Origin: Chitinophagaceae bacterium
GTDB taxonomy: Bacteria; Bacteroidota; Bacteroidia; Chitinophagales; Chitinophagaceae
DNA: 64,000 bases
Assembly (NCBI GenBank): GCA_014379345.1
Contig: JACMLY010000030.1
Location: 62,001 to 126,000, forward strand
Direction: 5' to 3'
Part shown: positions 1,086-44,457 of the stretch, one piece after another
Position numbering within the stretch: the stretch's first letter is position 1
Layout of the letters: every line of letters starts with the position of its first letter
Position numbers and translations under genes: made by a program
Notes under the pieces: generated by a model
What the model was told of the DNA's origin: nothing
The model's database searches: none
Seen by the model: the letters and a program-made list of their open reading frames with translations, nothing else

Positions 1086-1154
1086 ATCTGTATTAAGATC
1101 AGGAATGTTAAGATCACCGAAGTTAATGAAAACAGGGTACTGGGTGCTTTGTAT

Positions 1155-1190
1155 GGATGCCGGATACTTGATACCGGATACTGGATGCTT
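1155..1190. repeat. Short GGATGC/CCGGATAC word repeat
   Basis: The stretch is built from near-copies of one word: GGATGCCGGATACTTGATA followed by CCGGATACTGGATGCT. A related arrangement (GGATTCCGGATACGGGATGC, read on the minus strand) sits inside bioA at 26178-26222, so this is a dispersed element rather than a local accident. Confidence 0.5.
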
Positions 1191-9540: not shown

Positions 9541-9655
9541 GAGGTTTAAAGTTTAAGGTTTAAGGTTTAAGGTTAATTTGTTATTGTTTAATTGGTGTAG
9601 GAAGTATGAATTTCTAAAACTTTTTTCAATACAAACTTTAAACTTTAAACTTCCA
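9541..9655. repeat. TTTAAA-rich inverted repeat
   Basis: The left part repeats GGTTTAAGGTTTAAGG after an initial GAGGTTTAAAGTTTAAGG. The right end reads ACTTTAAACTTTAAACTTCC, so the termini are inverted copies around about 55 bp of unrelated AT-rich sequence. The same terminal word bounds the twin elements at 36098-36336. Confidence 0.65.
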
Positions 9656-12183: not shown

Positions 12184-12253
12184 TTTTTGCTGCGAATTAC
12201 ACGGATTATCGCGAATTTTAATTCGTGATAATCCGTGTAATTCGTGGCAAAAA
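12184..12253. repeat. Long palindromic intergenic repeat (34-bp arms)
   Basis: The left arm starts TTTTTGCTGCGAATTACACG and the right arm ends AATTCGTGGCAAAAA. The arms match over 34 bp with three mismatches and a 2-base centre. The element starts at the first base after the YkgJ stop codon. Its A/T-rich ends make it look like a bidirectional terminator, but it is also a member of the dispersed TTCGTGGCA family. Confidence 0.9.
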
Positions 12254-16761: not shown

Positions 16762-16880
16762 GTCAGTAATTCTTCGTGTCCTTCGTGCCTTCCGTTGTGT
16801 TCTTCGTGAACCTATCACTGTGCAGCTACAGGCTCACGAAGAACACAACGGAAGGCATGAAAGACACGGAGTTTACTGAT
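16762..16880. repeat. Very long imperfect palindrome (CTTCGTG type)
   Basis: The left arm (16762-16811) reads through CCTTCCGTTGTGTTCTTCGT and its right-hand complement at 16831-16880 through ACGAAGAACACAACGGAAGG. About 50 bp on each side pair, the inner 30 nearly perfectly, around an 19-base loop. It follows the barrel gene by 64 bp. CTTCGTG/CTTTGTG words link it to the elements at 25130 and 30825. Confidence 0.88.
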
Positions 16881-25129: not shown

Positions 25130-25206
25130 TTGCCACGAAGGCACTAAGACACAAGATTTGGATTTCAAACTTCCATTTACTTTGTGACTTAGTGCCTTCG
25201 TGGCAA
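25130..25206. repeat. Palindromic repeat (TTGCCACGAAGGCACTAAG)
   Basis: The left arm TTGCCACGAAGGCACTAAGA and the right arm, ending CTTAGTGCCTTCGTGGCAA, match over 22 bp with one mismatch around a loop of about 28 bases. It sits between convergent DUF2911 and bioA genes. Confidence 0.88.
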
Positions 25207-25232: not shown

Positions 25233-26621
25233 TTATATTTCATTTAATATCTCAATAATCACATCATATACTTTCTGCAGCTGGGTTTTTGTTATACAAT
25301 ATGGAGGCATTATATATACCGTGTTCCCCAATGGCCGTATAAAAACTCCTTTTGCTAAAGCTTTTTGAGTAATGGCGGCGCTTATATTATTAAGATAATC
25401 ATCCTTACCTTCTGTTTGTATTTCAAATGCGAGAATGGTGCCAAGACAACGATAGTGCTTGGTTTGTAGTTTGTGGTTGGTGGTTTGAAGTTGTATTAGA
25501 AATTGTTGATGTTGTTGATTGATCCTTTCAATATTTTCAAGACAATCCTGTTGCTGCAATAGATCAAGACTTGCTAAACCGGCAGTACAGGCTAAGGGAT
25601 TCGCTGTGTAAGAATGCCCATGAAAAAATGTTTTAAGCCTGTCGTCACTTACAAATGCGTCGTGGATCTTTTTGGAGCAGGCTGTTACACCCAAAGCCAT
25701 ATAGCCGCCCGTTAATCCTTTTGATAAACAGATAATATCGGGCTGGCATGGCAAGTATGCTGATGCGAACAACCTGCCTGTTCTTCCAAAACCAGTCATC
25801 ACTTCATCGGCGATGCAAATGATACCATATTCCTGTAGTGTATTTAGTAATTGGTTCAGCGGTCCTGCCTCAATCATTTTCATTCCTCCAGCACCTTGTA
25901 ACAACGGTTCGTAAATAAAGCAGGCGATTTCATCCGGGTGAATGGTGAGCCTGCCTGTCCGGCAGGCAGGTGATGAGCCTTCCTGCCCGGCAGGCATGTA
26001 GTGGGTGACACCCTTTGAAAAGTTTAGGATGATATCGTGTAAATTAGTTGGATCAATAAAAATGACTTCAAACAATTTATCCTGGAAAGCAAGTGTAAAA
26101 ATTCCGCGGTCACTCACACTCATTGCGCCGAAAGTATCCCCATGATAAGAATTTTTTAAAGCAAGGATCTTATTCCGTCTTTTTCCATCCAGCATCCCGT
26201 ATCCGGAATCCTGTAGCTTGTATTCCGCCCCCATATTCCACCAATACTGAATAGCCATCTTGATAGCAACTTCCACGGCAGTAGACCCGTTATCAGAATA
26301 AAATACTTTAGAGAAATTACCTGGCAGGATCCGTAAAAGCCTTTCCGCCAATTGCACTGCAGGCTCGTGGGTAAAGCCTGCGAATATTACCTGTTCAAGG
26401 GTTTTTGCCTGTTCGTATATTTTGTCAGCGATATAAGGATGCGCATGTCCATGCAGATTCACCCACCAGCTACTGATCGCATCTATATAGGAATTCCCAT
26501 TTGCATCTACCAGGTATACCCCCTCCCCCTTAATTACCGGAATCGGATCAGGTGCATATTTTTGAGGGGTATAAGGATGCCAGACCACCAGTTTGTCTCT
26601 TTCTGCCAGGGAATTTTCCAT
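25233..26621 (-). CDS. bioA: Adenosylmethionine-8-amino-7-oxononanoate aminotransferase with insertions
   Basis: 462 residues against about 425-430 usual for BioA. The start, LVVWHPYTPQKYAPDPIPV, and SWWVNLHGHAHPYIADKIYE are class-III aminotransferase/BioA hallmarks. YHGDTFGAMSVSDRG, EPLLQGAGGM, DEVMTGFGRTG and the pyridoxal-phosphate Lys301 in CLSKGLTGGYM are all intact, so the enzyme may still work. It converts KAPA to DAPA in biotin synthesis using SAM. Two stretches have no counterpart in ordinary BioA: residues 134-148 (YKLQDSGYGMLDGKR) and about 205-227 (VTHYMPAGQEGSSPACRTGR...). A third, about 377-390 (LQTTNHKLQTKHY), looks repeat-derived. All three are encoded by DNA resembling short dispersed repeats. 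No other bio genes are nearby. Confidence 0.93.
   Translation of the reverse strand: MENSLAERDKLVVWHPYTPQKYAPDPIPVIKGEGVYLVDANGNSYIDAISSWWVNLHGHAHPYIADKIYEQAKTLEQVIFAGFTHEPAVQLAERLLRILPGNFSKVFYSDNGSTAVEVAIKMAIQYWWNMGAEYKLQDSGYGMLDGKRRNKILALKNSYHGDTFGAMSVSDRGIFTLAFQDKLFEVIFIDPTNLHDIILNFSKGVTHYMPAGQEGSSPACRTGRLTIHPDEIACFIYEPLLQGAGGMKMIEAGPLNQLLNTLQEYGIICIADEVMTGFGRTGRLFASAYLPCQPDIICLSKGLTGGYMALGVTACSKKIHDAFVSDDRLKTFFHGHSYTANPLACTAGLASLDLLQQQDCLENIERINQQHQQFLIQLQTTNHKLQTKHYRCLGTILAFEIQTEGKDDYLNNISAAITQKALAKGVFIRPLGNTVYIMPPYCITKTQLQKVYDVIIEILNEI
25941..26009. repeat. CCTGCC/GGCAGG palindromes inserted in bioA
   Basis: Within the coding region, CCTGCCTGTCCGGCAGG (25950-25966) and CCTGCCCGGCAGG (25982-25994) are two adjacent palindromes. 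They encode the extra residues of BioA (about 205-227). They are GC-rich compared with the surrounding gene. Confidence 0.75.
26178..26222. repeat. GGATAC-word repeat inserted in bioA
   Basis: On the minus strand this 45-bp stretch reads CAGGATTCCGGATACGGGAT then GCTGGATG. This is the same word type as the intergenic repeat at 1155-1190. It encodes residues 134-148, absent from typical BioA. Confidence 0.65.
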
Positions 26622-36097: not shown

Positions 36098-36336
36098 AGG
36101 TTTAAGGTTTAAAGTTTAAGGTTGATTATGTGATAGTACATTTTTTACTTCAATATTATGAAGGCAGTGATTTACAATCTAAAAGACTTTAAACTTCAAA
36201 CCCCCCGCTTGTTGTTGTGAAAATACCAACAACGGCTATAAGGTTTAAAGTTGGTTATGTGATAGTACATTTTTTACTTCTATTATGAAGGCAGTGATTT
36301 ACAATCTAAAAAACTTTAAACTTTAAACCTTAAACC
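36098..36336. repeat. Twin about 95-bp elements with TTTAAA terminal inverted repeats
   Basis: Two copies (about 36098-36200 and 36240-36336) share TTATGTGATAGTACATTTTT and AAGGCAGTGATTTACAATCT almost base for base. Each starts AGGTTTAAAG-like and ends ACTTTAAAC-like, so each is bounded by inverted terminal words. About 40 bp separate them. They fill the whole gap between xylA and the serine-hydrolase gene. Confidence 0.85.
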
Positions 36337-44388: not shown

Positions 44389-44457
44389 TTTCTGCCACGA
44401 ATTTCACGAATTACCACGAATTAAATTCGTGGTAATTCGTGAAATTCGTGGCAGAAA
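44389..44457. repeat. Perfect 69-bp palindrome between convergent genes
   Basis: The left arm starts TTTCTGCCACGAATTTCACG and the right arm ends CGTGAAATTCGTGGCAGAAA. The two 34-bp arms are exact reverse complements around a single central A. It lies between the stop codons of the DUF4202 gene (44386) and the propeller gene (44459). Confidence 0.95.

Follow-up and report, generated by a model that had tools for sequence, protein, structure and literature searches.

Repeat DNA in three loops of bioA

The window, a stretch of 64,000 nucleotides, contains a bioA gene whose product, read from 26621 to 25233 on the minus strand, has the length of 462 amino acids that had been given for it in the initial annotation. 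The protein scored 527.1 bits at full length against the NCBIfam bioA equivalog TIGR00508 (cut-off of 405), and its predicted fold aligned with the solved BioA 6ed7_A over 410 residues (Z score of 44.1, 2.1 Å). Three stretches of this gene, all of them dispersed-repeat DNA involving period-7 arrays, were followed up. The gene and its repeats are as follows.

25233 to 26621, minus strand: bioA, adenosylmethionine--8-amino-7-oxononanoate transaminase (TIGR00508, PF00202, fold)
26184 to 26225, minus strand: loop 1 insert EYKLQDSGYGMLDG, 42 nt, six 7-nt units of the GGATACx family
25941 to 26009, minus strand: whole extension of loop 2, with the bounds of the initial annotation
25950 to 25970, minus strand: palindrome CCTGCCTGCCGGACAGGCAGG, 21 nt, between CTCATCA and CTCACCA (pattern search, reading of the DNA)
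25982 to 25994, unstranded: second, shorter palindrome, on the coding strand CCTGCCGGGCAGG (pattern search, reading of the DNA)
25458 to 25492, minus strand: loop 3 heptamer array of the CAAACCA type, peptide QLQTTNHKLQT (period-7 scan, TRF, alignment)

Loop 1, which spans from the QYW to the YHGDTFG motif, was 15 residues longer than in the solved BioA chains 5uc7 and 6ed7; this excess, already claimed from the sequence, was the same in both alignments, and the loop also exceeded the median of 110 BioA proteins by 15 residues. The coding strand (residues 133 to 146) consists of the heptamers GAATACA, AGCTACA, GGATTCC, GGATACG, GGATGCT and GGATGGA, the last four being clear and the first two degenerate, and the exact match to GGATNCNGGATNCNGGATNCNGGAT at contig C36:88187-88211 corresponds to window positions 26187 to 26211. 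The 45-bp GGATAC repeat that the initial annotation had placed at 26178 to 26222 is thus real, but its bounds were a few bases off (26225 to 26184, 42 nt). A search of the 5.14-Mb genome that holds the window for the GGAT 20-mer (up to 3 mismatches) gave 110 overlapping matches, bioA copies included, versus none for the reversed control. One such copy, reported before at 1155 to 1190, was recovered by pattern searches and TRF:

1154 to 1190, plus strand: further copy of the GGATACx heptamers

Loop 2 (around residues 204 to 226) carries two CCTGCC/GGCAGG palindromes beside short CTCACCA-like heptamers. Both had been proposed to lie in a second excess at 25941 to 26009, and both were found there; the loop is 20 residues longer than the median of the 110 BioA proteins. 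The palindrome pattern had 15 matches in the genome (bioA copies included) at 11 distinct places, with none for the reversed control; a further search gave 16 matches on both strands.

Loop 3 (around residues 377 to 388) reads AACCACC, AACCACA, AACTACA and AAC, with a period of 7; positions 25462 to 25485 scored as a period-7 array, and TRF set the bounds at 25462 to 25492. The stretch 25452 to 25493 had been described as a dispersed word that does not clearly lengthen the protein, and this description held. According to the alignment, the loop is just 2 to 3 residues longer than loops without an array, and the array therefore stands mostly in place of other sequence, as a replacement more than an insertion. 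The loop-3 22-mer (up to 3 mismatches) had 8 matches in the genome, bioA copies included, versus 1 for the reversed control.

The reading frame of bioA is open and the columns that are invariant over 46 BioA proteins are kept, among them K301 (LSKGLTGG), which we take to be the cofactor lysine. The view that repeat DNA entered the gene several times in frame and left the motifs intact is borne out to this extent, with no evident break, and we infer that the protein with its inserts is still a functional enzyme. An AlphaFold2 model (46 sequences) had a mean pLDDT of 85.2. Runs of at least 3 residues with a pLDDT below 50 occurred only at residues 135 to 145 and 215 to 223, inside inserts 1 and 2; low values were also present outside the inserts (block means of 58 at residues 161 to 170 and 62 at 201 to 210), and loop 3 was predicted well. 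To call bioA an essential-type gene was too strong, as 176 of the family's 394 genomes had a BioA match at E ≤ 1e-55, a threshold that may overlook some.

Period-7 arrays across the genome

In a survey of 864 kb of the same genome, made up of the window plus 40 pieces of 20 kb each, tandem segments numbered 77 at period 7, 59 at period 14, 29 at period 21 and 16 at period 28, versus 0 to 16 at each other period from 3 to 13. Order-3 shuffles of this DNA gave 0 to 4 segments per period and none at period 7. A lesser second series comprised 16 segments at period 8 and 8 at period 16, and 7 segments of period 8 were seen in 40 kb of genome G012.

The genome has many families of dispersed period-7 arrays. 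According to a simple gene finder, 76 of the 97 arrays in the survey were intergenic, 18 lay over a gene edge and 3 were within genes, in a sample that is 82% coding; loop 3 of bioA is one of these three. The units AAACCTT (21 of the 97 arrays) and AAACTTT (12 of 97) contain stops on both strands, and long arrays of them therefore cannot be read through. Of the gaps that held an array, 12 were convergent, 35 tandem and 10 divergent, compared with 88, 319 and 102 of all gaps of at least 40 nt, so that the intergenic arrays showed no strong preference for gene orientation. Judged by complementarity, 23 inverted pairings involved 41 of the 97 arrays, and the arms of the pair at C122:34713/34763 agreed almost unit for unit by eye. 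Two intergenic pairs lie in the window (inverted-repeat search, TRF):

9544 to 9652, unstranded: inverted pair of GTTTAAG-type arrays (9544 to 9574 and 9633 to 9652)
36098 to 36336, unstranded: second inverted pair of GTTTAAG-type arrays (36098 to 36123 and 36311 to 36336)

Other repeats of the window were noted alongside. The DNA at 36110 to 36329 contains two copies of a segment of some 90 nt, spaced by 127 to 129 nt, and GTTTAAG heptamers both within this segment and around it. The gene bioA converges with its neighbor, and the inverted repeat TTGCCACGAAGGCACTAAGACACAA lies between their ends (25130 to 25206; 25-nt arms, 96%); it belongs to another word family and by eye is not of period 7. 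Hairpins of CACGAATTA words occur at 44389 to 44457 and 12184 to 12253 (34-nt arms, 100% and 91%; spacer of 1 to 2 nt; TRF period of 9 to 10), related words recurring elsewhere in the window, and an inverted repeat of CTTCGTG words with 49-nt arms (86%) 2 nt apart is located at 16772 to 16871.

Heptamer sets of different genomes

For the two heptamers tested, the sets differ between genomes. Search-pattern counts include overlapping registers of one array. The exact four-unit GGAT pattern was found 20 times in the genome of the window, 50 times in G059 and not in 10 others, and reversed controls were zero in all of them. Further genomic copies of the words, whose absence would have refuted the reading of the initial annotation, were hence abundant (110 matches of the 20-mer and 20 of the four-unit pattern). 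Three GGATACN units in a row (up to 3 mismatches) had 163 matches in the genome of the window, 254 in G059 and 0 to 9 in nine others, three of the same genus included (reversed controls, 0 to 4). GGAT units in loop 1 of BioA were likewise restricted to the genome of the window and G059 (the genome of BioA L090) among the 12 genomes. Three units of CGGTCAA had 50 matches in G010, whose BioA carries exactly this triplet, 16 in the genome of the window, 14, 11, 4 and 3 in four genomes and none in five; reversed controls gave 0 to 3 except in G059. There, 33 matches to the reversed control were counted, and AACTGGC is probably another heptamer family of that genome.

Samples of 19 to 60 kb from nine other genomes held between 0 (six genomes) and 13 period-7 segments, the latter in 40 kb of G012. 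No period-7 segment was found in the 40-kb samples of G061 and G062, although their BioA carry an array, nor in those of G002 (19 kb) and G003 (40 kb), which belong to the same genus; G001 had 1 in 60 kb.

The palindrome pattern was found 19 times in G061, 8 times in G059, 5 times in G063, once each in three genomes and not in five. These counts, like those above, take in both strands, and reversed controls were zero in all 12 genomes.

The same loops in 199 BioA proteins

The loops were compared across 199 BioA: a first set of 110 (29 relatives, 80 named proteins and the window's own) and a second set of 89. Duplicates were kept in the first set, where L004/L107 and L002/L100 look identical in the loops shown. 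The second set was drawn from part of the matches listed, some near contig ends being left out; from 104 fetched, 14 near-identical to the first set and L402 (without the anchor motif) were removed, and duplicates within it were kept.

A lag-7 array was present in loop 1 of 17 of the 199 proteins, i.e., in 17 of 43 extended loops versus 0 of 156 short ones (Fisher p of 2.5e-13, which ignores shared ancestry and duplicates), and arrays at lags 4 to 6 and 8 to 13 numbered 0 to 3 each. In a FastTree phylogeny from which loop 1 had been left out, the trait changed state at least 12 times. In 26 of the 43 extended sequences, the lag-7 score today is below the threshold of 7. Over the full length of the bioA genes (258,618 nt in total), 21 strong period-7 segments (score of at least 10) were detected, all of them in the three loops, and periods 5, 6 and 8 to 11 gave 1 strong segment in total. 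Fifteen were in loop 1; the alignment placed the other six in loop 3 of the window's BioA and of L311, L315, L316 and L384 and in loop 2 of L306. The five loop-3 arrays encode leucines seven residues apart at a helix end, in loops of nearly constant length, as if overwritten and not inserted.

The units of loop 1 varied among BioA (GGATACG, GGAGGAA, CGGTCAA, CACAAAC, TGGAAAA, CAGTCAA, GTCGGTT and others). Near relatives had loops of 26 residues with CGGTCAA (L019), 28 with CAGTCAA (L108 and also L399), 26 with CAGTGAA (L111) and 47 with CAATGGT along with AAACAGA (L324). Because these arrays are related but differ, loop 1 seems to have been both inherited and rewritten among the five. Among 22 unit types listed from BioA, 21 would contain no stop in tandem on the coding strand, the unit of L111 being the one that would; for heptamers in general, about 69% lack a stop on a given strand. 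The commonest extension, +7 residues (26 versus 19; 11 of 199), equals three heptamers, and some loops of this size have no array now. Loops of at least 24 residues fell on 19+7k residues in 14 of 32 cases (p of 5e-5; both sets, ancestry ignored) and in 6 of 19 in the second set alone (p of 0.04).

The initial annotation had regarded orthologues that carry the segments, but with unrelated DNA sequence, as evidence against its reading. Orthologues extended at these loops by other DNA do exist, yet in 17 of the 43 extended loops 1 that DNA is itself a heptamer array, which strengthens the reading of these sites as permissive loops.

Repeat words in other genes

The cases in genes other than bioA come from searches with the palindrome and the loop-3 word, which constitutes a biased start. 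Ten open reading frames (ORFs) that read through one of these words were compared with NCBIfam. Eight reached a family cut-off (SucB, an ABC-F protein, GldA with the loop-3 word, NuoM, DnaG, DnaX, BshC and PrmC), the score of an RsmB-like protein fell short of it, and L058 had no family match. The palindrome, whose peptide is often LPAGRQ, LPAGQAG or similar, lies beside or inside heptamer arrays in several genes, and in two proteins of G059, BshC and PrmC, GGAT units adjoin it, as they do in that genome's BioA. When 21-nt flanks of nine hand-picked palindromes were compared, the heptamers were best in phase with the unit left out in five; the window palindrome and the RsmB-like case had no phase-0 peak, their short flanks being in phase by eye. 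In-frame insertion was seen in the orthologue alignment of BioA and is likely for the other ORFs.

When 642 predicted genes were searched for the repeat words, the matches did not exceed those of the control: with up to 3 mismatches there were 9 sites, two being in bioA, versus 13 for reversed words, and with up to 2 mismatches 1 versus 1. Six typed words were included, one being the loop-3 word of bioA, so that its exact match in bioA is circular and was not counted as evidence. Since the words were at control level in these sampled genes, a general invasion of coding genes by heptamers was rejected. Clean arrays within genes are rare, and bioA is an exception within the sampled part.

Origin of the arrays

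The dispersal of the words, their period of 7, the different sets for the two heptamers tested, the recurrence at three loops and the low order predicted for inserts 1 and 2 were observed directly. We think it quite probable that they reflect an untargeted writing of heptamer arrays, followed by selection for stop-free, in-frame survivors in loops, and that the three loops of BioA were refilled with the units of each lineage. A process at the DNA level would write period-7 arrays irrespective of genes, presumably through slippage during replication or template switching on units that form hairpins, together with copying between sites; palindromes may move separately from the heptamers. Selection would then purge arrays from genes, sparing those that permit read-through, are in frame in total and lie in a tolerant loop. 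Three units make 21 nt, or 7 residues, and a 7-nt array would read as one cycle of 7 residues in any frame. The three tolerant loops of BioA would thus be filled repeatedly by a lineage's own heptamers. The depletion of arrays in genes (3 of 97 in a sample that is 82% coding) fits selection acting after untargeted writing, and the array of loop 3, which replaces sequence more than it adds, is not explained by simple insertion. Whether the process is of wider reach, such that genome-wide writing in Bacteroidota, with units replaced within a genus, writes and partly overwrites both intergenic hairpin arrays and the same few enzyme loops, and a loop records the current repeat vocabulary, we regard as evenly balanced.

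Ordinary fast-evolving loops, in which normal indels merely resemble repeats by chance or low complexity, would agree with the 26 extended loops that lack a period-7 array at the threshold, with the score of just 7 for the window's GGAT array and with the control level of words (up to 3 mismatches) in genes. This explanation is nevertheless very unlikely, as a genome's heptamers match its own BioA loop: the exact four-unit GGAT pattern, absent from reversed controls, occurs in only 2 of 12 genomes, both with GGAT in loop 1, and lag 7 accounts for 17 of 199 proteins versus 0 to 3 at lags 4 to 6 and 8 to 13. An assembly or binning artefact is less credible still. The genome is in 173 contigs and repeats can confuse an assembly, but the open frame and the conserved columns contradict it, and an array is also present in BioA L367 of the one-contig genome G171 (5.5 Mb).

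A REP/RAYT-like or MITE-like mobile system that moves CCTGCC..GGCAGG, with heptamer arrays as preferred targets or by-products, is possible though doubtful. It would agree with the palindrome counts (16 in the genome of the window, 19, 8 and 5 in G061, G059 and G063, none in reversed controls), with the five of nine hand-picked cases in phase without the unit and with the several copies inside ORFs of known families; however, it would account for insert 2 only, heptamer arrays are abundant without palindromes, and next to the stronger Y1 transposase match of the two (C134), other repeats are seen by eye. The initial annotation had offered either selection for tolerated loops or a mechanism that prefers lengths of 3n. 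Tolerated loops fit the data, but nothing shows a preference for 3n, and arrays are depleted in genes. Such a mechanism is also unneeded, as a period-7 array keeps the frame only in steps of 21 nt. Together with a selected function of the inserts (hairpin regulation of bioA mRNA or protein interaction), it seems improbable: the excess of loops at 19+7k and the loop 1 of L313, by eye an inverted pair of arrays, would be in its favor, but the peak follows from selection alone given the multiples of 21 nt needed for the frame, and the differing loop sequences among genomes argue against one conserved function.

If arrays are written without a target and filtered by selection, bioA is a natural trap, its three loops in nearly 200 genes allowing the origin, growth, inversion and replacement of units to be compared. 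It is also a case of selfish-looking DNA that adds protein sequence, with a peak at 21 nt or 7 residues, and a warning that repeat DNA, and not function, may lie behind lineage-specific insertions in the loops of Bacteroidota proteins. Among the literature matches listed, with subscription papers mostly outside reach, no report of such heptamers in Bacteroidota was found.

Relation to known repeat systems

REP elements, which are moved by RAYT transposases, are described as short palindromes that are mainly intergenic and at times within genes (PMC3733652). The palindromes studied here are similarly short and occasionally lie in genes, but the stronger Y1 transposase match of the genome is flanked by another repeat. 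Two Y1_Tnp matches were present; the flanks of the stronger one alone were read, by eye, and the weaker is L211. The gene of the former, L210 (G000:C134:54938-55282), has clustered palindromes, e.g., ATCCCGTCAGGGAT followed by CGGTAG, which are REP/RAYT-like and distinct from the repeats studied. Given the flanks of this stronger candidate, a RAYT seems a less likely mover of the heptamers.

Rickettsia palindromic elements (RPEs) and similar coding palindromes in Wolbachia and Methanocaldococcus jannaschii are short selfish DNA that stands in frame in unrelated genes, typically in non-structured segments (PMC10969869, PMC2996958); RPEs are described with a length of about 150 bp and a conserved peptide. 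The in-frame entry into a protein-coding gene is shared by BioA, as seen in the orthologue alignment, whereas 7-nt arrays and palindromes of about 13 to 22 nt are found here in place of the longer RPE unit and its conserved peptide.

Cyanobacterial STRRs are described as units of usually 7 bp that are capable of hairpins, intergenic and of no known function (PMC2670836), and a title cited in PMC2858038 places STRRs within the RNase P RNA gene. Tandem 7-bp units are found here too (77 segments in 864 kb versus none in shuffled DNA), and a capacity for hairpins is indicated by the 23 inverted pairings of 41 of 97 arrays, as complementarity only. The present arrays differ in being from Bacteroidota, in lying in frame within a protein-coding gene, at the same loops in many genomes, and in heptamers that vary between genomes, even inside one genus. 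The heptamers of the BioA loops, a tested member of neither group, are related in kind to both the cyanobacterial STRRs and the RPEs.
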